A stretch of 64,000 bases of DNA, taken from the NCBI GenBank assembly GCA_903903735.1, contig CAIUZV010000267.1:1-64000 (forward strand), read 5' to 3'. The stretch is from an uncultured beta proteobacterium (GTDB lineage: Bacteria > Pseudomonadota > Gammaproteobacteria > Burkholderiales > Burkholderiaceae_B). A model generated the notes under the pieces. The model had not been told where the DNA came from, did no database searches, and saw only the letters and a list, made by a program, of their open reading frames with translations. Both the position numbers and the translations under genes were made by a program. This document shows positions 7,473-64,000 of the stretch, one piece after another (positions within the stretch are counted from its first letter, which is position 1; each line of letters begins with the position of its first letter).

Positions 7473-7940
7473 ATGACGACACACGCACAACAATCAAAAA
7501 CGGTATCGATTGCGGCGCAAATTGCGCAGCTTCCGCACCTGCCCATGCAGAACATTTGGGCGATGTGGGACACGCATTTTGATGAACGCCCTCAGCACCA
7601 CCATCGCACCTGGTTGGAATCCCGCCTTGCCTACAAGATCCAAGAGAAGGCCTTTGGCTCTCTCAAGCCGACCACCCGTAGAAAGCTGGAGGAAATCGGC
7701 GAAACAGGTTTACTTCCCAAGCGATTGCAAGGTGACGCAGATCGCCTTCTTCCCGGCACTATGCTCAGCCGCTTCTTTGATGATCAAGAGCACAAGGTGG
7801 TCGTGCGTGGGGTGCGCGACTTCGAATACCGTGGCCAGCGGTTTAAGAGCTTGTCGGCGATCGCTCGATTGATCGCGGGGTGTCCGTGGTCGGGTCCTGC
7901 GTTCTTTGGATTGAAGTCCACCAAGAAGGAGGCCGCATGA
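7473..7940 (+). CDS. DUF2924 domain-containing protein
   Basis: Sequence style and adjacency to a serine recombinase match the DUF2924 family (from memory). Confidence 0.75.
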   Translation: MTTHAQQSKTVSIAAQIAQLPHLPMQNIWAMWDTHFDERPQHHHRTWLESRLAYKIQEKAFGSLKPTTRRKLEEIGETGLLPKRLQGDADRLLPGTMLSRFFDDQEHKVVVRGVRDFEYRGQRFKSLSAIARLIAGCPWSGPAFFGLKSTKKEAA

Positions 7941-9355
7941 GAACCTCCCGCACAGCAGTGGCAAGCACACCGTCGATCATCCCCAAAAAGCGATGCGCCA
8001 TCTACACACGCAAGTCGACCGACGAAGGTTTGGACCAGGAGTACAACAGCCTGGAGGCACAGCGCGATGCAGGTCTTGCATTTGTGAGCAGCCAACGTCA
8101 TGAAGGTTGGCTGGCGCTGGATGACACCTACGATGATGGTGGATTCTCTGGCGGCAATATTGATCGCCCTGGACTCAAGCGCCTGATGGCTGACATTGAG
8201 GCCAGAAAAATTGATGTGGTGGTGGTCTACAAGATCGACCGTCTCACGCGCAGCCTGCCTGACTTTGCCAAGCTGGTTGAGGTTTTCGATCGCAACAACG
8301 TCTCGTTCGTCTCGGTCACACAGCAATTCAACACGACCACTTCGATGGGGCGGTTGACGCTCAACATCCTGTTGTCCTTTGCGCAGTTTGAACGCGAGGT
8401 CACGGGCGAGCGTATTCGAGACAAGATCGCAGCCAGCAAAGCCAAGGGAATGTGGATGGGTGGAACACCCCCACTGGGTTACGACGTGGTCGACCGAAAA
8501 TTGATAGTCAACGAGCGAGAGGCGAGCTTGGTTCAGGACATCTTTCGTCGGTATGCAGAGCACGGATCCGCAGCGCGCCTTGTGCGTGAGTTGGATATCG
8601 AAGGTCACAGCACAAAATCTTGGATCACTCAATCCGGCCAGCACCGTGCGGGCCGACCCATTGATCAGCACTACCTATTTTTCCTGCTACGCAATCGCCT
8701 GTACCTTGGTGAGATCAATCACAAGGGCGAGTACTTCCCGGCGCAGCACACCAGAATCATTTCGCAGGAGTTGTGGGATGGCGTGCAAGCATTCGTGAAC
8801 AAGCGAAAGCAAGGTCCAAGAGAGCGCAGGGATGAGTACCCGGCGTTGTTGGGTGGCTTGTTGTTTGCGCCCGATGGGCAACGGATGATTCATCATTACA
8901 CCAAGAAAAAGAATGGACGCATGTATCGGTACTACGTGCCGTACTTGGAAAAGAGACGCAGCGCAGGCGCAACGCAAGATGGAAACGGAAAAAGTATCGG
9001 TGCGCTTCCAGCTGCCGAGATTGAGGCCGCAGTGTTGAGCCAGATCGAACTGGCGCTGATGGAGCCGGAGGCATTGATTGGTGTCTGGCGGTCATGCCTG
9101 CAGCACAGTGCCGGAGCCGATCTTCAAGAGGACCAGGTGGTGGTGTCGATGCGAAGGATTGCCGATGTCTGGAAGCAGTTGTTCCCGGCAGAGCAGCAGC
9201 GCGTTGCCCAGCTGCTCATCGAGCGAGTGGACTTCAGGGACGGTAGCCTGGACATCCATTGGCGTGAAGATGGTTGGGTTGGGCTGGATCCAAGCATCGT
9301 GGCGCACCCCTATGTGGAAGAGGCAAAAGAGTATGCAGCTGAGGTGATGGCATGA
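7937..9355 (+). CDS. Large serine recombinase (resolvase/invertase N-terminal + recombinase domain)
   Basis: CAIYTRKSTDEGLDQEYNSLEAQRDA...VVVYKIDRLTRS...FAQFEREVTGERIRDKI. Confidence 0.95.
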   Translation: MRTSRTAVASTPSIIPKKRCAIYTRKSTDEGLDQEYNSLEAQRDAGLAFVSSQRHEGWLALDDTYDDGGFSGGNIDRPGLKRLMADIEARKIDVVVVYKIDRLTRSLPDFAKLVEVFDRNNVSFVSVTQQFNTTTSMGRLTLNILLSFAQFEREVTGERIRDKIAASKAKGMWMGGTPPLGYDVVDRKLIVNEREASLVQDIFRRYAEHGSAARLVRELDIEGHSTKSWITQSGQHRAGRPIDQHYLFFLLRNRLYLGEINHKGEYFPAQHTRIISQELWDGVQAFVNKRKQGPRERRDEYPALLGGLLFAPDGQRMIHHYTKKKNGRMYRYYVPYLEKRRSAGATQDGNGKSIGALPAAEIEAAVLSQIELALMEPEALIGVWRSCLQHSAGADLQEDQVVVSMRRIADVWKQLFPAEQQRVAQLLIERVDFRDGSLDIHWREDGWVGLDPSIVAHPYVEEAKEYAAEVMA

Positions 9356-44018: not shown

Positions 44019-45611
44019 TTGGCCTTCGAAGCAAACATGTCCGAAACAAAAGAGCTCCGAGAGATCATGACCTTGACTGAAAAGCAAACCTTCCGCGCCG
44101 CCCAGTACGTGCGCATGTCCACCGAACACCAGCAATACTCCACACTCAACCAGGCCGACAAGATCCGCGAGTACGCCGACAAGCGTGGCATCGAGATCGT
44201 GCGTACATATGCCGATGACGGCAAGAGTGGCCTGTCCATTGGTGGTCGCGCATCGCTGCAGAAACTGATCGCCGATGTCGAATCGGGCAACACCGATTTC
44301 AACCTGATCCTGGTCTATGACGTCAGCCGCTGGGGTCGGTTTCAGGATGCGGACGAATCCGCCTATTACGAGTACATCTGCAAGCGCAAGGGCATCAGCG
44401 TTGCCTACGTCGCTGAGCAGTTTGAGAACGATGGATCTCCCGTCTCCACGATCGTCAAAGGCGTCAAGCGCGCCATGGCCGGCGAGTTCAGCCGCGAACT
44501 CTCGGCCAAGGTCTTCGCCGGCCAGTGCCGCCTGATCGAACTCGGCTTTCGCCAGGGCGGTCCGGCCGGCTTCGGCCTTCGCCGGGTGTTGATCGACCAG
44601 AGCGGCGCCATCAAAGCCACCTTGAAACCCGGTGAGCACAAAAGCCTGCAAACCGACCGGGTGATCCTGGTGCCGGGGCCGGCGCAGGAAGTGGCCACGG
44701 TCCACCAGATTTACCAATGGCTGGTCGAAGACGACTTACCACTGTCTGATATCGCCCAGCGCCTCAACGACATCCCCATCCACACCGATCTGGACCGCCC
44801 CTGGACCTACGGCACGGTGCGCCAGGTGCTGACCAACGAGAAGTACATCGGCAACAACGTCTATAACCGCCACTCCTTCAAGCTCAAGAAAAAGCACGTC
44901 GACAACCCACCGCAGATGTGGATTCGCAAGCAGGGTGCGTTCGAGGGCATCGTTCCGCTTGACACGTTTATGGCCGCGCAGGAAATTCTGACGGAGCGCA
45001 GCCGCCGTTTCTCCGATGAAGAACTGCTTGAACACCTGCGATTGCTCTACCAGGAGCGTGGGACGCTGTCGGGCCTGATCATCAACGAGGCGCCGGCCCT
45101 TCCCAGCGCCGCCACCTACATCCAGCGCTTCGGCAGTTTGAGCAAGGCGTATGAACTGGTCGGCTTCCGCCCAGGGCGGGACCTGGAATTCCTCGAGATC
45201 AACCGGCGTTTGCGCCAGCTCCATCCCGAAATCGTCGAACGCACCCAGCACACGATAGCTGAATTGGGTGGCGATATCTGGCGCGATCCACAAACCGACC
45301 TGCTGCATCTGAATCAGGAACTGGTCATCAGCCTGGTACTCGCGCGTTGTCAGCAACTGCCCAATGGCCTGCAGCGCTGGCGCATCCGCTTTGACCCCAG
45401 TCGCTACCACCCGGACATCACGGTGGCGGTGCGCCTCGACCCCGGCAATGCCACCGAGCTCGATTACTACCTGCTACCGCGCCTCGATCTGCCCAACCAG
45501 GAATTACAGGTCACAGCTAGAAACAGCGCGGAAATCGAATGCTTCCGCTTTGACGACCTGAACTTCTTCTACGGCATGTCCGAGCGGGAGCGTCTGCAAC
45601 GACGCATTTGA
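44019..45611 (+). CDS. Serine recombinase (second, divergent from 7937..9355)
   Basis: AAQYVRMSTEHQQYSTLNQADKIREYADKRG...LILVYDVSRWGRFQD. Confidence 0.93.
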   Translation: MAFEANMSETKELREIMTLTEKQTFRAAQYVRMSTEHQQYSTLNQADKIREYADKRGIEIVRTYADDGKSGLSIGGRASLQKLIADVESGNTDFNLILVYDVSRWGRFQDADESAYYEYICKRKGISVAYVAEQFENDGSPVSTIVKGVKRAMAGEFSRELSAKVFAGQCRLIELGFRQGGPAGFGLRRVLIDQSGAIKATLKPGEHKSLQTDRVILVPGPAQEVATVHQIYQWLVEDDLPLSDIAQRLNDIPIHTDLDRPWTYGTVRQVLTNEKYIGNNVYNRHSFKLKKKHVDNPPQMWIRKQGAFEGIVPLDTFMAAQEILTERSRRFSDEELLEHLRLLYQERGTLSGLIINEAPALPSAATYIQRFGSLSKAYELVGFRPGRDLEFLEINRRLRQLHPEIVERTQHTIAELGGDIWRDPQTDLLHLNQELVISLVLARCQQLPNGLQRWRIRFDPSRYHPDITVAVRLDPGNATELDYYLLPRLDLPNQELQVTARNSAEIECFRFDDLNFFYGMSERERLQRRI

Positions 45612-51191: not shown

Positions 51192-52130
51192 ATGAATTCA
51201 AAAAATTATACCCATGCAATTATGTTTCATCATTTCCATGGGTTAGGGCATCCGCAGGTTCAGGGATCAATATCTGGAGTTGAATTTGAAGAAATGCTTG
51301 ATTGGCTCTCGAGCAGATTTACGATACTTTCAGCGCCCGTATACCTTGAAAAGCTTAAGAAAGAAAGCTTGCGTCCTACTGATATTTGTCTCAGCTTTGA
51401 TGATGCGCTTCTTTGTCAAGCTGAGGTAGCGGTTACAGTTTTAAATAAACGTAATATACAGGCATTTTTCTTTGTATATTCGTCCCCGCTTGTTGGCAAA
51501 CCCGACCCCCTAGAAATATACCGGTATTTTAGAACTGTTGAGTTTTCCGATATAGGTCAATTTTACAATGAGTTCTTCAAAGAGGCAGAGGGCTTGTATG
51601 ACGAATCAATTTTTGCTGCGAAACAAAGCTATGATTCAACGTCATACCTTAGCGCATTCCCGTTTTACAGCGAGAGCGACAAATGGTTCCGCTATCTGCG
51701 CGATCAAGTATTGGATAAAGAAAAATATGATTTTGTCATGAACCGTTTGATGGATCGATATAGATTTAATCAAAAAGAGGCATCGACAAAACTTTGGATG
51801 AATGATGATCATATTAGGCGGCTAAGCGAAGCCGGTCACATTGTGGGGCTTCACTCATACTCCCATCCAACAATGATTCATAAGCTTTCGAAGGAGCGAC
51901 AAGCTGAGGAGTACGTTGCAAATTTTGAACACCTTTCTTCGGTGCTGGGACATAATCCAATTGCGATGAGTCACCCCTGTGGAAATTATGGTGACGAAAC
52001 ATTAGATATATTAAAAAAAATGGGAATTGAGGTGGGTTTTCGTAGGGATAGTAGCGTAACGTCTATTACTTCTAATCTTGAGGTTCCAAGAGAAGATCAT
52101 GCAAACATCTTGAGGCAGATGAAACAATGA
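51192..52130 (+). CDS. Polysaccharide deacetylase-family protein
   Basis: ICLSFDDALLCQAEVAVTVLNKRNIQAFFFVYSSPLVG...VGLHSYSHPTMIHKLS. Confidence 0.85.
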   Translation: MNSKNYTHAIMFHHFHGLGHPQVQGSISGVEFEEMLDWLSSRFTILSAPVYLEKLKKESLRPTDICLSFDDALLCQAEVAVTVLNKRNIQAFFFVYSSPLVGKPDPLEIYRYFRTVEFSDIGQFYNEFFKEAEGLYDESIFAAKQSYDSTSYLSAFPFYSESDKWFRYLRDQVLDKEKYDFVMNRLMDRYRFNQKEASTKLWMNDDHIRRLSEAGHIVGLHSYSHPTMIHKLSKERQAEEYVANFEHLSSVLGHNPIAMSHPCGNYGDETLDILKKMGIEVGFRRDSSVTSITSNLEVPREDHANILRQMKQ

Positions 52131-52921
52131 AAATAACAGTTTTTACCAGCAATCAACCTAGGCATATTGCGTTGATTAAGCGGCTTGCTGCAATCTCAAC
52201 TCAGACGTTTGCTGTCCTCGAATGTAATACGGTGTTCCCGGGGGCGGTGGCTGACTTTATTAAAAAAACTGAAGTAATGCGGCAATATTTTGACAACGTA
52301 ATGCGCGCTGAAAGATATTTTTATGGTGATATCGGCTTTCTCCCGAATAACGTTCAGACGGTTTCTGTAAAAAGTGGCGATCTGAGTCAACTGAGCAAAG
52401 ATGTTCTTCTTGAGGCTCTCTCATCGGATTTGTATGTGGTTTTCGGGGCGAGCTACATTCGAGGTTGGCTTGTTGATTTTTTGGTTCAAAAAAAGGCAAT
52501 CAACATTCATATGGGAGTGTCGCCATATTATCGCGGTGCTGCTTGCAACTTTTGGGCTCTGTTCGATCAAAAACCTGAATATGTAGGGGCTACTATACAC
52601 CTCCTCTCAAAAGGGCTTGATAATGGCGAGATGCTTTATCATGCGCTGCCTACCTTGGCTGATGAGGACCCCTTTCTCTTTAGTATGAAGGCTGTGGAGG
52701 CGGCACAGATTTCGTTAGTGGGAAGGATTGAGTCGGGGGATTTATTCCGAATGAATGGAGTGCCACAGGATAAGAGTGTGGAATTAAGGTATACACGAAA
52801 TTCAGACTTCACTGATGAGATTGTTGCTGAATTTTTTTCTTTGGGCTTGAGTAATGCGGCGTTGGCTGAGCAATTAAAAGAGTCAAGAGAATATTCTCTT
52901 ATTTCACCATTCTATCTTTGA
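52127..52921 (+). CDS. Formyltransferase-family protein (sugar N-formyltransferase-like)
   Basis: INIHMGVSPYYRGAACNFWALFDQKPEYVGATIHLLSKGLDNGEMLYH. Confidence 0.85.
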   Translation: MKITVFTSNQPRHIALIKRLAAISTQTFAVLECNTVFPGAVADFIKKTEVMRQYFDNVMRAERYFYGDIGFLPNNVQTVSVKSGDLSQLSKDVLLEALSSDLYVVFGASYIRGWLVDFLVQKKAINIHMGVSPYYRGAACNFWALFDQKPEYVGATIHLLSKGLDNGEMLYHALPTLADEDPFLFSMKAVEAAQISLVGRIESGDLFRMNGVPQDKSVELRYTRNSDFTDEIVAEFFSLGLSNAALAEQLKESREYSLISPFYL

Positions 52922-52955
52922 GCAAAAAAATCTGAAACTTGGAAAGTTTAATGTA

Positions 52956-53894
52956 ATGATTGATTTAAATTTCAAATTTGTCGCATCCCATCGAGATGTG
53001 TATTTGCCCGCATTCCGTATTTTTTCAAGAAGGGTTAGTATTTCGCACCTTCTCCCTAAAGTTTCAAGATTAATTAATAGGTATTTATATCGTTTAGGTG
53101 TCGCATCGTGCCTCAATCGCTACGATAATTCATTTACCGTTTACTCATCCCGTGCGGATAAAAAGCTTTATCATGGATTTGGAGAAAATGATCTTTTCAT
53201 CAACTTTGGTTCCGGGGCATTTTTCCACAATAAATGGAAGAATTATGATTACCCAGGGCAGTCTATCTACTATAAGTGTTTGCAAGGTGCGGAGAGTCGC
53301 GACTTTTACGCAATAGACTTATGCGCTGATTCATTGGTCATTCCGGAAAAAGATGCTTCTGTCTCATTAATTTATTGCTCGCATACGCTAGAGCATCTAG
53401 AGGAGGCTTCAGCGAAGCATTTTTTAAAAGAATGTCATCGAATACTTAGGCCAAACGGAGTCATGCGTATTGCATTGCCAAATACCAGAAACGATGCTTA
53501 TTTTTACGACTGCTTGAGTCGACAATCGAAGTGTGTGGAAGAAATTAAGACTAATTATCTAATGAGCGCTGCCGGGCATATATTGTCTGATGCAAAACGC
53601 ATTGCAAAACACGAGATAGAAGAGCTGTTTCGAATGGCAGATAACGAGAGCAAAAGGTTCTTTGAGATTATGAAGGAGAAAGATAAGTCTGCTTCAAAAT
53701 TTGATGGCTCCAATCCGGAGCGGCATATTACCTACTGGGATTTTGAGGGGCTGATGGCTATTGCGGAGAAGATTGGGTTTAAATTCTTGGCTCCTGTTTA
53801 TCCGGGGGCATCAATGGCTGCGCCGTTTACAAATATTAATGTTTTCGATAATACGGAACCGCATCAATCATTCTACGCAGAAATAGTGAAATAG
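52956..53894 (+). CDS. Class I SAM-dependent methyltransferase
   Basis: FINFGSGAFFHNKWKNYDYPGQSIYY...VSLIYCSHTLEHLEEASAKHFLKECHRILRPNGVMRIALP. Confidence 0.8.
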   Translation: MIDLNFKFVASHRDVYLPAFRIFSRRVSISHLLPKVSRLINRYLYRLGVASCLNRYDNSFTVYSSRADKKLYHGFGENDLFINFGSGAFFHNKWKNYDYPGQSIYYKCLQGAESRDFYAIDLCADSLVIPEKDASVSLIYCSHTLEHLEEASAKHFLKECHRILRPNGVMRIALPNTRNDAYFYDCLSRQSKCVEEIKTNYLMSAAGHILSDAKRIAKHEIEELFRMADNESKRFFEIMKEKDKSASKFDGSNPERHITYWDFEGLMAIAEKIGFKFLAPVYPGASMAAPFTNINVFDNTEPHQSFYAEIVK

Positions 53895-53951: not shown

Positions 53952-54656
53952 ATGATCAAAAATCATCCGGTGCTTGCTCTGATTCCCGCCCGAGGCGGCT
54001 CAAAGGGCATTCCGCGCAAGAACTTGACCCCAATCGGGGGGCGTCCGCTTGTTGCATGGACGTTGAAGGCTGCGATCGGCTCGCAATGCATCGACCAGGT
54101 CTGGCTGTCTTCGGATGACGTCGAGATCCTCGAAGTCGGGCGAGTGCTTGGTGCCCACACGCTGCTGCGTCCGTGCGCATTCGCAAACGATACGGCCAGC
54201 GCCATGGTGGTGGTCGAACATTTCTTGGGTTCATTACCGGACGAAGTGGCTAAGCTCGACCCCTTCATTGTCTATTTGCAGCCAACGTCTCCCTTGCGTA
54301 CAGCAGCGCACCTCGACGCTGCTTTCGCGCAAATGGAAGCTCAAGGCGCCCACACGTTGATTAGCGTGGTCGCGGTGGAAACCTCACCCTTCAAGACCTT
54401 CAAGGTTGGCCGTGACGGTCGACTCCAGTCCTTGTTCGACGAGCAGCTTTCGAATGCCCGCCGCCAAGACCTGCCCAAGACCTTTACTCCCAATGGGGCG
54501 ATCTACATCTTTCAACGCTCCGAATTTCTCGCACACCGAGGCTTTCCATCGAACGGCAGCCTCCCATTTATCATGACCGCCGAGGACAGCATCGACCTCG
54601 ACTCGCCGGACGACCTCAATCGCTTGACGCATATTCTGGAGAACTCACGTGGCTGA
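53952..54656 (+). CDS. Acylneuraminate/nonulosonate cytidylyltransferase family
   Basis: ALIPARGGSKGIPRKNLTPIGGRPLVAWTLKAA. Confidence 0.92.
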   Translation: MIKNHPVLALIPARGGSKGIPRKNLTPIGGRPLVAWTLKAAIGSQCIDQVWLSSDDVEILEVGRVLGAHTLLRPCAFANDTASAMVVVEHFLGSLPDEVAKLDPFIVYLQPTSPLRTAAHLDAAFAQMEAQGAHTLISVVAVETSPFKTFKVGRDGRLQSLFDEQLSNARRQDLPKTFTPNGAIYIFQRSEFLAHRGFPSNGSLPFIMTAEDSIDLDSPDDLNRLTHILENSRG

Positions 54657-55692
54657 ATTTGAAATCGCCGGCCGTCGGATCGGACCGAATCTCCCACCCA
54701 TCGTCATTGCCGAAATTGGCATCAATCACGAGGGTTCGCTCGATCTCGCCATTGAAATGGCAGATGCCGCGATCGATGCGGGCTGCGAAATCGTGAAGCA
54801 TCAAACGCACATTGTTGAAGACGAAATGTCCAGCGAAGCCAAAGGGGTCATTCCCGGCAACGCGGATGTTTCGATCTACGAGATCATGGAGCGTTGTGCG
54901 CTCTCCGAAAGAGACGAATTCCGTCTGATGCAGCATGTTCAATCGCGTGGCGTCATCTTCATCAGTACACCGTTTTCGAGGGCTGCAGCCGAGCGACTGG
55001 CTAGATTCGATATCCCGGCATTCAAGATCGGATCGGGCGAGTGCAACAACTACCCCCTAGTCCGTTATGTCGCGCGCTTCGGCAAGCCGGTCATCATTAG
55101 TACTGGCATGAACTCCATCGAGTCTGTTCGCCCCTCGGTCGACATTCTTCGCAAGGCAGGCGTACCCTACGCACTGCTGCATTGCACGAACGTTTATCCG
55201 ACGCCGCCCGAGCTTGTTCGGCTCGGTGCAATGCAGCAGTTGCAGAATGCTTTTCCTGATGCAGTAATTGGCCTATCTGACCACACGACCTCCAACTACA
55301 CCTGTCTTGGAGCGGTGGCGCTGGGCGCCTCAATTCTCGAGCGTCACTTCACGGATCGAATGGACAGGCCCGGCCCGGACATCGTCTGCTCAATGGACCC
55401 ACAGGCGCTAAGCGACCTGATCCAAGGATCAAAGATCATTTTTTCCGCCCGGGGGGGAGAAAAGCGACCAATCGAGGCAGAGGCTCCAACCATCGCTTTT
55501 GCCTTCGCTTCGGTGGTTGCTACGGCTGACATTCAACCTGGAGAGATGTTGAATGAGGCTAACATTTGGGTCAAACGACCTGGAGGAGGAGATTTCGGTG
55601 TCCTTGACTACGATCAATTGCTTGGAAAAGTGGCCCAGAAATTAATTCGCAAGGGATTCCAGATTAAGGCAACCGACCTTGTGTGTAGTTGA
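54649..55692 (+). CDS. N-acetylneuraminate/nonulosonate synthase (NeuB family)
   Basis: PPIVIAEIGINHEGSLDLAIEMADAAIDAGCEIVKHQTHI; FKIGSGECNNYPLV; C-terminal SAF-like. Confidence 0.93.
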   Translation: MAEFEIAGRRIGPNLPPIVIAEIGINHEGSLDLAIEMADAAIDAGCEIVKHQTHIVEDEMSSEAKGVIPGNADVSIYEIMERCALSERDEFRLMQHVQSRGVIFISTPFSRAAAERLARFDIPAFKIGSGECNNYPLVRYVARFGKPVIISTGMNSIESVRPSVDILRKAGVPYALLHCTNVYPTPPELVRLGAMQQLQNAFPDAVIGLSDHTTSNYTCLGAVALGASILERHFTDRMDRPGPDIVCSMDPQALSDLIQGSKIIFSARGGEKRPIEAEAPTIAFAFASVVATADIQPGEMLNEANIWVKRPGGGDFGVLDYDQLLGKVAQKLIRKGFQIKATDLVCS

Positions 55693-56534
55693 TGCTTAGA
55701 GAAATGAGTGTTGTCGTCACCGGTGCATCAGGTTTTTTGGGTAAGCGAGTCGTCGAAGCCCTTCGTATCCGATCCGTGAATGTCTATCCAGTCGCAAGAA
55801 CACTAGAAGCAGGCATCTTTCATGTGGAGAATTACGATCAGGCGCCGTTAGCAGACGTACTAATCCATCTCGCGGAAGATCCGAATCGTGCGAGGGTGAA
55901 CGCCGCCGGTACAGAGTACGAGAAAGAGGTGCTCAGAACACTGGCTGTATTGCTGAATAAAGGCTACAAGACTGTTGTATATGCATCGTCGGCATTGCTG
56001 TATGGGGATAGATGCGTCGCACGCCACGGTGTGAATGATCCAGTTGAGGTGGTGGATACCTACACTAATGTCAAAAGGCAGGCGGAGCTTGCTGTCCTTC
56101 GGCATGAGCGTGGCGTGGTTGTGCGCTTGGCCAATCTTTATGGCCCAGGTATGTCTGGAACGAATGTTGTAAGCAAGATCCTAGGGCAGTTGGATAGTGC
56201 ATCGCCTATGCAAGTCTGGGATGACAGCCCCATTCGCGATGTGCTTTGGGTAGAAGATGCCGCCGCAGGTATTGTTAACATTGCGCTCCATGCTGAAAAG
56301 TCAGGAATATTCAATCTAGGAAGCGGCGAAGGAACTTCTATCGCAGCTTTAGCGCAATTGGCAATGAAATTGAGTGGGCAGGAAAGCAGGACGCTTGAAG
56401 TGACAAATCCGGGTAACGGCTCCTCGGTACTTGTACTGGATATCGATCAAACCACGCGTATTTGGGGCTGGCAGCCCCGTGTAACCTTACACGAAGGTCT
56501 GAGTAAACTTATTGAAAATGGGTCGCATGTATGA
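55692..56534 (+). CDS. NAD-dependent epimerase/dehydratase (SDR)
   Basis: VVVTGASGFLGKRVVEALR...VDTYTNVKRQAELAVLRHERGVVVRLANLYGPGMSGTN. Confidence 0.88.
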   Translation: MLREMSVVVTGASGFLGKRVVEALRIRSVNVYPVARTLEAGIFHVENYDQAPLADVLIHLAEDPNRARVNAAGTEYEKEVLRTLAVLLNKGYKTVVYASSALLYGDRCVARHGVNDPVEVVDTYTNVKRQAELAVLRHERGVVVRLANLYGPGMSGTNVVSKILGQLDSASPMQVWDDSPIRDVLWVEDAAAGIVNIALHAEKSGIFNLGSGEGTSIAALAQLAMKLSGQESRTLEVTNPGNGSSVLVLDIDQTTRIWGWQPRVTLHEGLSKLIENGSHV

Positions 56535-57751
56535 AAAAGAGAATCATCGCCGTCTTTACTGGGAACAGGGCCGAGTATGGACTTCAATATCCAATTCTTA
56601 AGGCAATCGATAAACACCCGAATCTCGACTACCGCCTCCTCGTATCGGGCGCCCACCTGGACTCAAACTTTGGGCGCACCCTAGATGAGATTCGTGATGA
56701 CGGCTTCCGTATCGAAGCCGAAATCAAGATTGAAATGGATGCTGATTCATTAATCGCTACGGCTCAGGCAATTGGCTCCGGTGTACTCGAGATTAGCAAA
56801 GCTCTGGCGAAGATCAAGCCGGATCTAATGATTGTGTATGCAGATCGTTTTGAGGGCTTGGCAGCGGTAATCGCGGCCAGCCAAACCAATGTGCCGACGG
56901 CGCATGTCGAGGGTGGCGACTTGACGGAGGGAGGAGCGCTTGATGACTCCGTGCGACACGCTATGACCAAACTCTCCCACCTGCACTTTACGACTAATGC
57001 CCAAGCAAGCAACCGCATCCTAGCCATGGGTGAGGAAGCCTGGCGCGTCCACACGGTCGGATTCCCCGCCATTGATCTGATCGCCGAGGGCCGCTTTGCA
57101 TCTCAGACGGAAATCGTGGAAAAGCTGAGCGTCGATCTGTCACGACCCTTGGTGCTTTTCACCCAGCACTCAGTCACTACCGAGTTCGACCGCGCCAGCG
57201 AGCAGGTATTGCCGTCGCTTGCAGCTATCGAAGCGCTGGCGGACAAGGGGGTACAAGTCATTCTGACCTACCCTAACAACGATGCCGGCGGCAAAGCCAT
57301 CATTGGTCAGTTGGAAGCGTTCAAGGAAAAGGCGGTTCCCGGCACGCAGGTGCATCGCTCGCTGGGCCGACACATTTATCACGGCGTCCTTGCGCTAGCT
57401 AGGAATCCGGGTATCCGAGTGACTTGCGTTGGCAACTCATCATCGGGGCTCAAGGAAACACCAGCATTTGGCTGTCCGACGGTCAATATCGGCTCTCGTC
57501 AGGAAGGTCGTTTGCGCGGCGAGAACGTCGTCGATGCAGGGTATGACAGCGCAGCCATCCAGGCGGCCATAGAGAAGTGTCTATTTGACGAACCCTTCCG
57601 TGCACTTAGCCGCGCAGCGCCCAACCCCTACTACCTGGGGGACGCCGGCCCCAAGATCGCCAACGTGCTCGCCTCCGTCCCCCTCGACCAAAAGATGATC
57701 CGCAAGAAGATGACGCTGCGTGGCGAAGCGCAGGACGGATGGTATCGATGA
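56531..57751 (+). CDS. UDP-N-acetylglucosamine-type 2-epimerase, hydrolysing (NeuC/LegG-like)
   Basis: IIAVFTGNRAEYGLQYPILKAI...THVEGG-type TAHVEGGDLTEGGALDDSVRHAMTKLSHLHF. Confidence 0.92.
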   Translation: MKKRIIAVFTGNRAEYGLQYPILKAIDKHPNLDYRLLVSGAHLDSNFGRTLDEIRDDGFRIEAEIKIEMDADSLIATAQAIGSGVLEISKALAKIKPDLMIVYADRFEGLAAVIAASQTNVPTAHVEGGDLTEGGALDDSVRHAMTKLSHLHFTTNAQASNRILAMGEEAWRVHTVGFPAIDLIAEGRFASQTEIVEKLSVDLSRPLVLFTQHSVTTEFDRASEQVLPSLAAIEALADKGVQVILTYPNNDAGGKAIIGQLEAFKEKAVPGTQVHRSLGRHIYHGVLALARNPGIRVTCVGNSSSGLKETPAFGCPTVNIGSRQEGRLRGENVVDAGYDSAAIQAAIEKCLFDEPFRALSRAAPNPYYLGDAGPKIANVLASVPLDQKMIRKKMTLRGEAQDGWYR

Positions 57752-58806
57752 CCGAAACGCCGTTGCAAATGGACGCACGGCTGGTCGATGCGGTCAATGC
57801 GATCGAGTCGACGCATCGACGCATCGCCGTTGTCGTCGATCAGGATCAGTGCGTCATGGGTACGCTGACGGACGGCGACGTCCGGCGCTGCCTCCTGCGC
57901 GGAGGGACGCTCGAAACACCGGCGGCTGAGGCCATGAACCGGAGGCCTATCACCTGTACGACGAGCAGCAGCGATGCGCATATTCTCGAGTTGATGAATC
58001 AGGGAAATATCGAAGCCCTGCCCTCGGTAGACGATGAGGGGCGCTTGGTCCGCCTCGTTCATATCACTGACATTTCGGATCCGCAGAGCCACTTCGATGG
58101 TCGCGCCGACTTTGCCTACGCAGTCATCATGGCCGGTGGCGAGGGCATGCGCCTGCGTCCCATTACGGAAACCATTCCTAAACCCATGGTGGATATCGGT
58201 GGGCTCCCGCTCATCGAACATCAAATCCGCCGCCTCATACGTGCCGGCATCCGGCATGTATATATCTCGCTCAACTACCTTGGACATGTGATCGAATCTC
58301 ACTTTGGAGACGGATCAGCTTTTGGCGTCAGAATTCGCTATCTGCGTGAAGATAGGAAGCTAGGCACAGCTGGCGCACTCACACTGCTGCCAGAAAAACC
58401 AGAGGCCCCAATTGTCGTCATGAATGGCGACATTTTAACAACGTGCGACTTCAATGGCTTGTTCGACTTTCATATTTCCCACGGTGCTGCGGTGACGGTA
58501 GGTGCCGTGGATTACCACGTCAACATTCCGTTCGGTGTCATTCAGTCGGAAGGCCCGCGCGTAACCGGGCTGGCCGAGAAGCCGTCGCAGCGATTCCTCT
58601 GCAACGCCGGTATCTACGCAGTATCGCCAGAGGCCCTCGACCTTCTGCCCGGTATGCAGTTCTGGAACATGACCGACATGATCGAGAGCTGTATTGCATC
58701 CTCGCGGCAAGTGGTGGTGTTCCCGGTTCACGAATACTGGAGCGACGTCGGCACTCCGGATGACCTAGAAAAGGCGCGTGCCTTTATCAGGGAGCGACCG
58801 CACTAG
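57748..58806 (+). CDS. CBS-domain sugar nucleotidyltransferase (PtmE-like)
   Basis: CBS-like IAVVVDQDQCVMGTLTDGDVRRCLLRG; YAVIMAGGEGMRLRPITETIPKPMVDIGGLPLIEH. Confidence 0.9.
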   Translation: MTETPLQMDARLVDAVNAIESTHRRIAVVVDQDQCVMGTLTDGDVRRCLLRGGTLETPAAEAMNRRPITCTTSSSDAHILELMNQGNIEALPSVDDEGRLVRLVHITDISDPQSHFDGRADFAYAVIMAGGEGMRLRPITETIPKPMVDIGGLPLIEHQIRRLIRAGIRHVYISLNYLGHVIESHFGDGSAFGVRIRYLREDRKLGTAGALTLLPEKPEAPIVVMNGDILTTCDFNGLFDFHISHGAAVTVGAVDYHVNIPFGVIQSEGPRVTGLAEKPSQRFLCNAGIYAVSPEALDLLPGMQFWNMTDMIESCIASSRQVVVFPVHEYWSDVGTPDDLEKARAFIRERPH

Positions 58807-58909
58807 CTCACCTTGAATAATCAGATCTGACTCGCAATTGGCGGCACTGGCTATCTCACTTTCTCATCTTCAAAGCTAGGCTTATCTAGAACTAATATAA
58901 CGTAAAGAA

Positions 58910-59917
58910 ATGAACATCATCGAAAATATTTCTGGGAAAACCGTAGCTGTTACTGGCGCTGACGGCTTCATCGGAAGTCACCTCTCCGAACTCTTAGTGC
59001 AATCAGGAGCTAGAGTCCGAGCACTGGTTTATTACAACAGCTGGAATGAATTGGGCTGGCTGGGCGATGCCCAACAGAGCCTCGTTGACCAGATGGAATT
59101 GGTCAACGGCGATATCCGGGATACCGAACTCATCCGCAAATTCGTCAAGGGTTGCGACTATGTCTTCCACCTGTCCAGCCTGATCGCCATACCCTACAGC
59201 TACGAGGCACCGCGGTCGTATATCGACACCAACGTAATGGGCGCAATCAATGTGCTGCAGGCCTGTCGCGACAGCGACTCTCTTACACGCCTCGTGCACG
59301 TCTCGACCTCCGAGGTTTACGGCACGGCCCAGCAAGTTCCGATTTCTGAAAGCCATCCGCTGGTAGGGCAATCTCCGTATTCCGCCAGCAAGATCGCCGC
59401 GGACAAGATGGCGGAAAGCTTTTATCTGTCCTTCGGCCTGCCCGTCGTCACCGCCCGCCCTTTCAACACATTCGGGCCGCGCCAGACCGCTCGCGCGGTG
59501 ATCCCGACAATTGCAAGCCAACTCGCTGCCGGCGCCAGCAAACTGACCTTGGGTGCGCTGCATCCGACGCGCGACTTTAACTACGCAACGGATACTGCCG
59601 CCGGCATGCTGGCATTAGGTTTATGCCCCGCGGCTGCAGGCAAGGTAGTAAATATCGGCTCAGGCGAAGAATGGTCGATCGGCGAGACCGCCAAGATCCT
59701 CTGCGAGCTGTCTGGCCGCGAGGTTGAAATCCAGACTGACGACAATCGCATCCGTCCGGAAAATAGCGAAGTATTTAGATTGCTGGCAGACAATTGCCTT
59801 ATCCACGAGCTAACGGGTTGGAAGAGTCGGGTGAGCTTTCGCGATGGGTTATCAAATACACTGGAATGGATTCAGCGAAACAAACACTTATTTAATCCCG
59901 AAAGGTATTCAAAATAA
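58910..59917 (+). CDS. NAD-dependent 4,6-dehydratase (LegB-like)
   Basis: VAVTGADGFIGSHLSELLVQSGARVRALVYYNSWNELGWL...PFNTFGPRQTARAVIPTIASQL. Confidence 0.9.
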   Translation: MNIIENISGKTVAVTGADGFIGSHLSELLVQSGARVRALVYYNSWNELGWLGDAQQSLVDQMELVNGDIRDTELIRKFVKGCDYVFHLSSLIAIPYSYEAPRSYIDTNVMGAINVLQACRDSDSLTRLVHVSTSEVYGTAQQVPISESHPLVGQSPYSASKIAADKMAESFYLSFGLPVVTARPFNTFGPRQTARAVIPTIASQLAAGASKLTLGALHPTRDFNYATDTAAGMLALGLCPAAAGKVVNIGSGEEWSIGETAKILCELSGREVEIQTDDNRIRPENSEVFRLLADNCLIHELTGWKSRVSFRDGLSNTLEWIQRNKHLFNPERYSK

Positions 59918-60114: not shown

Positions 60115-61872
60115 ATGAATATATCAGCTGCCAGCAAATTGCTGGGTGAAATTTACCGTCTAGTTGAAAGTGGCAAGCAGTCGTTACTCCAAGTGGTTGC
60201 AATGGGCGCAGTCTTGGCATCTATTGATTTGCTTGGTCTATATTTGTTAGGAAAATTTGTCGCGATGACGGCAGCTTCCGAGTCTGCTCTGAGTTTGCAA
60301 GCCTTTGGTTGGTACCTACCGGTCTCATACGACAGAGCGGCAATTATTTTAGGCATTGTATACGTCGGCCGTGCTATTTTAGGTATTGGAGCTAATCATA
60401 AAATTAATCTTATAGCAGCAAATCTGGAGGCGGATCTTAAAGCAACTATTCTATTGCAATATCAAGTCATGCCATATGCTGAGAGGATGCGGCGTGGTAT
60501 TGGTGAAATGTCAGAGGCCGTAAGTGTATGGACCGCCAGTTTTGTCAGGGCAGTTTTTTCCCCTTTGTCTCGCTTTATTTCTGAATCGATTATTTCCATA
60601 ACCATCAGCGCGTATTTTTTATATTTATATCCCAAAGTGATTTTGTTTTTTTGTGTCTTGGCAGTCGTGGCGGTTATATCTTACGATATGTTAGTGAAGC
60701 GCAAAGCCAACGCAAGTGCTTCAGCATATCGTCAAGCTTCGACGCAGTTGTCGGAGGAGATTCAAAATACGTTGTCGGGATATAAAGAAATTATTGGGTT
60801 TGGTTTGCCTCGATTTTTTTCTAATAAAATTCATTCTAGTGCGAGGAAAATGTGTGGATCACTAGCCAAGGCAATTACCTTTGCGCAAGCTCCTCGTCTG
60901 GTGATTGAGGCGTTCCTAGTGGTCTGCGCTGTAGTTGTTTTGTGGGGCATGACCTATGTTGGGCGAGATGTTCGCGCTGAATTACCGAATATTGCAATGA
61001 TCGCTGTTGGAGTGATGAGAATTTCGTCTTGGTTCAGCCTTACGACAAGTATGCTTTCAAATATGAGGCTATATCGTCCAATAGTTTCATCGCTTGCGCT
61101 TGATTTGGGGGTTGGCGAGAACTCTTTCCTGGGACCCGCAGTTAAGCCGGCTAAGACAGTTGCATCGAGAGAAATGACTTATTTGTCGGCAGAAAATATT
61201 TCGTTTGCTTATGACGAAAATCGAAGAATATTCTCCGGATTAGATTTCAAAATTGAAGCAGGTGATCGTGTGGCAATCGTTGGACCTTCCGGCGCAGGTA
61301 AGACGACACTATTAGACGTAATGATGGGGCTAATAAAGCCTACGACGGGTGGCGTTACGGTACATATCTCAGATGGCAGCTCGCAGGGAAATTTATTGGG
61401 AATTGGTAGTTATCTTTCACAGTCAACCTTTATTCTCAATGATACCGTAAGGCGAAATGTGGCACTTGGCGTTCCAGATGAGGAGATTGATGACGAAAGA
61501 GTAAAGATGTCTCTTCGACGTGCAATGCTCCCAGAGTTCGCTGAAGAGATGGGCCTAGAACGAGTGCTTGGCAGCTCGGGGGCATTAATTTCCGGCGGGC
61601 AAAAACAGAGGGTTTCAATTGCTCGCGCTTTCTATTTCGGGCGAAGCGTTTTTTTATTTGATGAAGCTACAAGCGCATTGGACTTACAGACGGAGTTAGA
61701 GATTATCCGTGTGCTTTTTGACATGGGCCGGAATATCACTCTGATTGTCGTGACGCACAACCAAGATCTTGTGGCGAAATTTAATAAAAAAATTGAAATT
61801 ACCGCTGATTTTTCTGGAGTGGATACTTTGGCGTATCCGAACAAGGTCGGCCACTCATCTGGATTGCTGTAG
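60115..61872 (+). CDS. ABC transporter permease/ATPase (exporter type)
   Basis: VAIVGPSGAGKTTLLDVMMGLIKP; LISGGQKQRVSIARAFYFGRSVFLFDEATSALD. Confidence 0.93.
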   Translation: MNISAASKLLGEIYRLVESGKQSLLQVVAMGAVLASIDLLGLYLLGKFVAMTAASESALSLQAFGWYLPVSYDRAAIILGIVYVGRAILGIGANHKINLIAANLEADLKATILLQYQVMPYAERMRRGIGEMSEAVSVWTASFVRAVFSPLSRFISESIISITISAYFLYLYPKVILFFCVLAVVAVISYDMLVKRKANASASAYRQASTQLSEEIQNTLSGYKEIIGFGLPRFFSNKIHSSARKMCGSLAKAITFAQAPRLVIEAFLVVCAVVVLWGMTYVGRDVRAELPNIAMIAVGVMRISSWFSLTTSMLSNMRLYRPIVSSLALDLGVGENSFLGPAVKPAKTVASREMTYLSAENISFAYDENRRIFSGLDFKIEAGDRVAIVGPSGAGKTTLLDVMMGLIKPTTGGVTVHISDGSSQGNLLGIGSYLSQSTFILNDTVRRNVALGVPDEEIDDERVKMSLRRAMLPEFAEEMGLERVLGSSGALISGGQKQRVSIARAFYFGRSVFLFDEATSALDLQTELEIIRVLFDMGRNITLIVVTHNQDLVAKFNKKIEITADFSGVDTLAYPNKVGHSSGLL

Positions 61873-61873
61873 A

Positions 61874-63391
61874 GTGGGTGTTATTGTTTATATTCCAACT
61901 GGGCTCGCTTCACCAGAGCTCGAAATTTTGCTAGCAAAGGCGCAGTTTGCAATCAATGCAGGCGCAAGGACCACTGTTGTCACTTGTGCAGGGGGTGCGG
62001 GGTACGCTTGCTCATTGAATATCTATGGCTTGCGCTCGCTATGCAAGGTCTGCAAAAGCGTCACCAACCGGGGCGTGTCAAAGCTTCAAGGAGTTTACGA
62101 ACACGTACAGACGCCTACGATAATTTCGGTGCCGCCAAGGATTCGCGCTCGCGCGGCCCTTCTGATGACGCGTCAGGCAATCAAAGCCCACAGTTTTGAA
62201 GATGTCGATGTTGGTCAAGCCGCGTACGCTAGTTACATCGGACTATCGCGAGACCAAGATCTAGAGGGCCGCTTGGCTGGTTTCTCGCTAAACCGGCTCT
62301 TAGCCTCATCGGAGCAGCTGCTTCCGTGGTTCCGAGAGCTGATACGGACCCGCCAAGCAAAGCGTGTTGTTCTGTATAACGGTCGGCACAACCAATATCG
62401 CCCCTTGCTAAGGGCTGCGCAGCATGAGGGCGTTGAAGTTGATGTCATGGAATTTTCAGGTAGGGATTGTCAATGCGTCTATACCTATAACAATAATTTG
62501 CCCCAGATGCTCGATGTGCTCTATGCCTGTATAGAAGTCACTTGGAAAACATTTAGCGGCGATGTTGAGCAATGCTGCAGGGACTACTTTACCTTTAAGC
62601 GTACGGGCGTCGTTACGAACGGCGATCGGTCTTTCGTGCTTGGTCAAACCAAAGGGATGTTGCCGTCGGGATGGGATGCGACGAAGCACAACGTAGTCAT
62701 TTTCAATAGCTCCGAGGACGAATTTGCCGCGCTAGGCGGGGAGTACGATGAGACGATCTACTGTAGCCAGACCGAAGCAATCACACGATTATGTCAATCG
62801 GTGAGTGATGACCCGGATCTCGTGATCTGGCTTCGTATTCATCCGAATCTTTCTGGAGTCCTCTGGAGCTTCGCGCGGCGACTACTTCATCTGGAAAAGT
62901 TGCATCAGAATGTTCGCGTCATTCCCGGTAACTCGCCGGTGAGTTCTTATGATCTCCTTGACGCCTGTGACACCGCGCTAACCTTTGGCTCGACAATGGG
63001 GGTCGAGGCAGCTTATTGGGGTAAGCCCTCAATACTGGTAGGCCGCTTCATTCACGAGCGGTTGGGATCGCTCTATACGCCTAAGACGCACGAAGAAGTG
63101 GTGAGATTGATCCGGCAGCGAAATCTACCACCGCTTCCTTTAACGGGAGCGCTAAAGTTCGCCTTATTCTGGAGCAAAGGGGGGGGGGGGATACCACACT
63201 TTGAGGGTAATCGAGACAAGGGTTTTACCTTCAATGAATACAAAGTTACCAAGACGAATATTGAGACGGCAATTTATAAAATTGCGAAGTTAATCGAAAA
63301 AACTGTTCTTGGTTATCTTCTAAATTACGGTTTGGGTAAGACGCGTAGCCAAATGCGCGCAAATGTGACGAATGCATTATCTGATCGCTGA
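61874..63391 (+). CDS. Capsule/surface polysaccharide biosynthesis protein with internal G12 tract
   Basis: GTG start; GNSPVSSYDLLDACDTALTFGSTMGVEAAYWGKPSILVGR typical of capsule/CDP-glycerol transferase-like folds. Confidence 0.7.
   Translation: MGVIVYIPTGLASPELEILLAKAQFAINAGARTTVVTCAGGAGYACSLNIYGLRSLCKVCKSVTNRGVSKLQGVYEHVQTPTIISVPPRIRARAALLMTRQAIKAHSFEDVDVGQAAYASYIGLSRDQDLEGRLAGFSLNRLLASSEQLLPWFRELIRTRQAKRVVLYNGRHNQYRPLLRAAQHEGVEVDVMEFSGRDCQCVYTYNNNLPQMLDVLYACIEVTWKTFSGDVEQCCRDYFTFKRTGVVTNGDRSFVLGQTKGMLPSGWDATKHNVVIFNSSEDEFAALGGEYDETIYCSQTEAITRLCQSVSDDPDLVIWLRIHPNLSGVLWSFARRLLHLEKLHQNVRVIPGNSPVSSYDLLDACDTALTFGSTMGVEAAYWGKPSILVGRFIHERLGSLYTPKTHEEVVRLIRQRNLPPLPLTGALKFALFWSKGGGGIPHFEGNRDKGFTFNEYKVTKTNIETAIYKIAKLIEKTVLGYLLNYGLGKTRSQMRANVTNALSDR
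63179..63190 (+). repeat. Homopolymeric (G)12 tract in coding sequence
   Basis: Read directly: ...gcaaa gggggggggggg ataccac... Confidence 0.97.
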
Positions 63392-64000
63392 AAGCGTCGC
63401 TCTTAACCCTCATCTTGAAACAGCAGGTGAACTTGCGCTTCGATTTCGTGACGAGGGGCATGAAGTTAGTTTCACTTGGTTGGGTGACGACTTACCATGG
63501 TCCGACTGGTGTCTCCCGGCAGTTGCTCGGTTGCTCGGATGCTCACTAGAACGACGGGTGCGGCGATTTATGGGCTTGCTGGGACAAGAGGGGATCGTTG
63601 TTTACAATCAAGTGACTCCAAACGATGGGCGGCTTGGACGTGCCCTGATGTGGGCTGCAGATTTTCGCGGTGATACCGAGGCGCTGAAAAATTATCGCTT
63701 GGATTCGGCAAGGCTCGGGATGGGGGCTGTTTCGTCATTGATCTCTCTTCATGGAGACAGTCGATACCGCGCCGACCTGAATCAGGAAGAGGTGCATCAA
63801 TGTCTTGCAGCAGCGGCTCTGGTGTACGAGCGCGCTCGGTCGGTAATTGAGTGGGTAAGGCCAGACGTTGTTGTAACCTTTAACGGAAGGTTCGCAACAT
63901 CCAAACCAATTGTTGCCGCGGCAGAGGACTTTGGCATTCGGACGTTGCGTCATGAGCGAGGCAGCAACTTCCAGCGTTACGAAATTTTTGAAGACTCGGT
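63372..64000 (+). CDS. Surface-polysaccharide protein, truncated by window end
   Basis: Open frame MHYLIAESVALNPHLETAGELALRFRDEGHEVSFTWLGDDLPW... to the last base; absent from the ORF track because it has no stop. Confidence 0.7.
   Translation, partial: MHYLIAESVALNPHLETAGELALRFRDEGHEVSFTWLGDDLPWSDWCLPAVARLLGCSLERRVRRFMGLLGQEGIVVYNQVTPNDGRLGRALMWAADFRGDTEALKNYRLDSARLGMGAVSSLISLHGDSRYRADLNQEEVHQCLAAAALVYERARSVIEWVRPDVVVTFNGRFATSKPIVAAAEDFGIRTLRHERGSNFQRYEIFEDS

Follow-up and report, generated by a model that had tools for sequence, protein, structure and literature searches.

Predicted glycosyltransferase gene and surrounding glycan cluster

Towards its end, the window (the whole 64-kb stretch of DNA analysed here, from a metagenome-assembled genome, MAG, of an uncultured member of the Burkholderiales) carries a predicted GT-B glycosyltransferase gene of 505 codons (61874..63391, forward strand, as are the neighbouring genes and tract features given below). 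Its GTG start lies 1 nt after the stop codon of the upstream ABC-transporter gene; a TTG start at 61769, taken from a mechanical list of open reading frames, was rejected, since it lies inside that upstream gene and the orthologue alignment favours GTG 61874. The transporter itself (60115..61872) is of the PglK/MsbA type with a predicted function in glycan export or flipping. Further upstream, a set of nonulosonic-acid (legionaminic-acid-like) genes (53952..59917) comprises a PseF-like cytidylyltransferase, a NeuB-type synthase, an SDR, a NeuC-type epimerase, a CBS-nucleotidyltransferase and a LegB-like dehydratase. On the other side, a paralogous glycosyltransferase of 483 aa begins at 63372, overlapping the end of the first gene by 20 nt, and extends past the window end at 64000. 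Genes at 51192-53894 and 60115-61872 have a GC content of 40-44% compared to 50-58% in their neighbours, and this contrast suggests that parts of the glycan cluster were acquired from elsewhere. Additionally, a tailed-phage prophage is located at 7880-45611, just upstream of the cluster (itself beginning near 48.9 kb), with terminase, portal, tape measure, tail J, endolysin and serine-type integrase genes (the latter at 7880-9355 and 44019-45611) according to PHROGs. A sequence-only reading of this DNA had labelled the glycosyltransferase gene a surface-polysaccharide gene. The glycan part of this label stands, given the nonulosonic-acid genes, the ABC flippase and the adjacent glycosyltransferases; the product may belong to a polysaccharide, to LPS or to the glycan of a glycoprotein, and a surface- or environment-facing role is putative.

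A search of the PDB with a profile of 49 sequences found KpsC (E about 9e-6) and WbbB, and Foldseek with an AlphaFold model of the enzyme (mean pLDDT 90.7) returned UDP-GlcNAc 2-epimerases, KpsC and WbbB, with 6mgb at E 2.5e-7 and a TMt of 0.54. By structural and profile similarity the protein hence has a KpsC/WbbB-like GT-B fold. With the retaining beta-Kdo transferases KpsC (GT107) and WbbB (GT99), as well as with NCBIfam family BFO_1060, it shares this fold and a common C-domain signature, but identity is low (12-16%), TM-scores are modest (0.31-0.54), and the matches to PF05159 Capsule_synth (19.6 bits, cut-off 20) and NF046086 BFO_1060 (31.3 bits, cut-off 200) fall just and well below the respective curated cut-offs, so that neither these families nor GT99 or GT107 are claimed. 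Judging by its model, the protein is a GT-B enzyme and probably a glycosyltransferase near the CMP-Kdo transferases. Because PseF-like, NeuB-type, NeuC-type and LegB-like genes lie upstream, a CMP-nonulosonate is the natural candidate donor. It has been argued, however, that retaining Kdo-like enzymes may not readily evolve to use the common equatorial-C5 nonulosonates, which makes this donor tentative; a related pseudaminic-acid transferase has been described in the same study (PMC12887879).

The G12 tract and its reading frames

Exactly 12 G are found at 63179-63190 in the context AGC AAA GGG GGG GGG GGG ATA CCA CAC TTT, where they form codons 436-439 (Gly4) in frame. All four glycine codons are GGG, with none of the silent interruptions that would stabilise the repeat. 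The tract is the sole G/C run of at least 9 in the window, the runner-up being a C8 at 18118, and exceeds the length of 9 or more G/C taken as sufficient for slippage. According to Markov models (order 1-3) fitted to the genome's own contigs, 64 kb should contain 0.001-0.004 G runs of at least 12 and the whole 2.86-Mb assembly 0.05-0.2; two G12/C12 runs and one G10 run are observed in the assembly. When the peptide SKGGGGIP is back-translated with the codon usage of the locus, a G run of at least 12 arises in 0.35% of draws (probability 0.0035). The tract is unexpected by chance on both counts.

Gain of one G (G13) yields ...GGGGDTTL and a TGA at 63202..63204, a position read directly from the sequence (GAT ACC ACA CTT TGA, stop after four codons). 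Upon loss of one G (G11), 33 foreign residues are added before a TAA at about 63291..63293, as computed from the length of the G11 protein. In either OFF frame the last 66 native residues (440-505, codons at 63191..63391) are lost, and a length change by a single unit therefore alters the gene product. These results agree with the sequence-only reading, which had placed the tract in frame, predicted the two stops four and about 34 codons on, and estimated the loss at about 65 residues.

In the AlphaFold model, residues 440-505 form a beta-hairpin followed by a long terminal helix of 43 residues (462-504), and the G12-encoded segment is the link preceding them. Across the family at large, conservation is moderate over residues 440-460 and poor beyond 461, though the C-terminal motif is well conserved in the two orthologues described below. 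As the tract is located about 87% along the gene, near its 3' end, the catalytic core is made in every phase, including its best-conserved stretch (residues 261-403), which tempers the interpretation as a switch. It is likely, yet not certain, that activity is lost on truncation, with the catalytic core intact in the OFF products. Furthermore, the OFF stops fall 168 nt (G13) or 79 nt (G11) short of the point at which the overlapping next glycosyltransferase gene begins, and 79-168 bases would remain untranslated; hence, polarity on the downstream gene in the OFF states is possible.

Orthologues and other G/C tracts

Two orthologues were compared, one (L070) from a Bdellovibrio MAG (46% over 492 residues) and one (L071) from a Lake Lanier MAG (59% over 263 residues). 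The aligned segments are WIKGGVSIKYFEGDR..GFTFN in L070, WSRGGHAIPHFNGNR..GFDFN in L071 and WSKGGGGIPHFEGNR..GFTFN in the window. At the tract, KGGGGIPHFEG in the window corresponds to KGGVSIKYFEG (L070) and RGGHAIPHFNG (L071), with identical K/R-G-G-x-x-I spacing on both sides. On the DNA level, this site reads AAA GGA GGA GTA TCG ATC in L070 and CGG GGA GGG CAC GCC ATT in L071, and a G run is absent from it in both orthologues; no G or C run longer than 7 was found in the gene among the homologues examined. Because the orthologues keep the same frame and residue spacing without a run, G12 represents the functional ON state of ancestral length, in line with the initial view of this copy as ON. 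Distant paralogues hint at two extra residues before the motif, but the idea that the protein has grown compared with other family members was rejected, as the orthologues have the same spacing and no net insertion. On this alignment the tract is unique to this genome, its uniform GGG codons having arisen in this lineage, where G12 replaced two variable codons next to the conserved GG. Close homologues, in which other tract lengths might have shown, were found neither in 31 congeners nor in 400 genomes of the order. The next paralogous glycosyltransferase is located directly downstream in both L070 and L071 (the L071 copy being 47% identical to that of the window), and L070 also retains related ABC-transporter, formyltransferase, deacetylase and methyltransferase genes, a gene content that points to a module moving between lineages.

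The same comparison bears on two further explanations. In a draft MAG of 461 contigs and about 80% completeness, homopolymers are error-prone, and the real tract might be shorter or otherwise different from the assembled one. Such an error is very unlikely, as G12 is located inside an 80-kb contig and the assembled length preserves the frame and equals the orthologue residue count on both sides, which an erroneous length would achieve in one of three cases. Secondly, long homopolymers can cause polymerase slippage, and transcriptional or ribosomal slippage on G12 would make each cell produce full-length and truncated protein in a constant ratio, buffering a genetic switch. This is extremely improbable: a programmed site would be expected to be conserved, whereas the tract is missing from the orthologues, and the supporting case, discussed for Buchnera (PMC2831843), concerns poly(A) and not a G run.

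Across 32 genomes of the genus, G/C runs of at least 10 number 0-3 per genome and are mostly intergenic or in housekeeping genes, with G10 examples in carB and a cobyric-acid-synthase-like gene; a genus-wide G-tract phasome was rejected on these numbers. The longest run in this survey is an intergenic G15 in a near-complete genome (G014 C1:242123-242137; L055:6124-6138). In the genome studied here, a second clear contingency locus was not found. Its G10 (C209:14183-14192; L021:5184-5193) lies in frame at the 3' end of a second, PglK-like ABC-transporter gene adjoining a GT25 gene, and is a weak candidate for a switch, since shifts swap the last 19 residues for 6-10 others. A C12 (G000 C275:3698-3709; L020) forms part of the pyrimidine-rich leader of fumC, 43 bases ahead of the start codon; the run is C9 in one sister species (G016) and interrupted in another (G031). 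As lengths differ between sister species, such tracts do change length in this lineage, possibly with an effect on fumarase expression or by neutral drift, and G/C runs thus also grow here without an obvious surface switch. A mismatch-repair defect was considered as the cause and rejected: MutS is present, and MutL was not found, but the assembly lacks about 7.4 kb where its gene would be expected (matches cover the two sides only, one of them starting at the first base of a contig), which gives no sign of a deletion.

Neutral expansion is hence a serious rival to phase variation, albeit a rather unlikely one. A GG-rich stretch would have grown by mutation and slippage into an unstable tract without a selected switch, its OFF variants being counter-selected or harmless. 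The private nature of G12, the variable fumC leader, the genus-wide preference of long runs for intergenic sites (besides carB and the cobyric-acid-synthase-like gene) and the position at two non-conserved residues beside the conserved GG, where glycine may be tolerated, are consistent with it. Against it, the tract sits in a glycosyltransferase gene within an accessory glycan cluster, and in genes of this class tracts of this type are typically under selection; four uninterrupted GGG codons are also improbable under the local codon usage.

Proposed switch and comparison with known systems

The somewhat favoured reading is phase variation, with G12 as a slippage-prone coding repeat that switches a glycosyltransferase of the nonulosonic-acid/glycan cluster. 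DNA polymerase slippage at the tract would add or remove single Gs in this organism; 12 Gs would give the full 505-residue enzyme (ON), while with 13 or 11 Gs the protein would end 4 or 33 residues past the tract without hairpin and helix (OFF or impaired). As OFF translation would stop well before the overlapping next start, coupled translation of the downstream glycosyltransferase may fall as well. Cells of the population would then differ from one another in a single glycan-decorating step, presumably with a surface phenotype on which selection for switching could act. The 3'-end position, the few tracts in the genus and the lack of a second clear contingency locus in the genome count against a dedicated switch. 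A bolder version, in which a non-pathogenic, uncultured member of the Burkholderiales controls a KpsC/WbbB-like transferase of a nonulosonic-acid glycan by one 3' G tract and so toggles two adjacent glycosyltransferases via translational coupling, e.g. for bet-hedging against phages, is quite improbable. The kind of system is ordinary; host and enzyme are moderately interesting. If the tract is variable, it would place a contingency locus in the MAG of an uncultured Burkholderiales bacterium instead of in a host-restricted pathogen, link a KpsC/WbbB-like glycosyltransferase family to phase variation for the first time as far as the literature was surveyed, and provide naturally occurring ON and OFF forms with which to identify the sugar transferred by this KpsC-like family.

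Phase-variable LPS/LOS glycosyltransferases of Neisseria and Haemophilus are switched by repeat slippage and reversible frameshifts. They resemble the present case in combining a glycosyltransferase gene with a slippage-type repeat, but belong to different enzyme families, and their repeats are strain-conserved and experimentally proven. In the flagellin glycosylation locus of Campylobacter jejuni, Cj1295 and further genes likewise carry G/C tracts within a nonulosonic-acid glycan cluster, and their on/off state changes glycan structure; in contrast, the protein family is unrelated, the tract lies in the 5' region instead of the 3' region, and many tracts occur per genome (PMC3068675). Bordetella pertussis, also of the Burkholderiales, has such loci in bapC (coding, G9-G12), tcfA, BP3651 and the fim promoters, with G/C runs of the same length in coding or regulatory positions (PMC1891110). 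For these tracts of 9-12, variation was demonstrated within single cultures: G11 predominates in the coding tract of bapC, with nearly every isolate also containing G10/G12 subpopulations, and the BP3651 tract, where its length exceeds 8, differs between cells of a colony (PMC1891110). The Bordetella loci are autotransporter, fimbrial and envelope genes of a pathogen with measured variation, whereas the tract described here belongs to a glycosyltransferase of an uncultured MAG known from one assembly. By analogy, these precedents make instability of G12 likely, and since the tract is improbable by chance and Bordetella G/C tracts of 9-12 vary within cultures, its interpretation as a phase variation switch is plausible.
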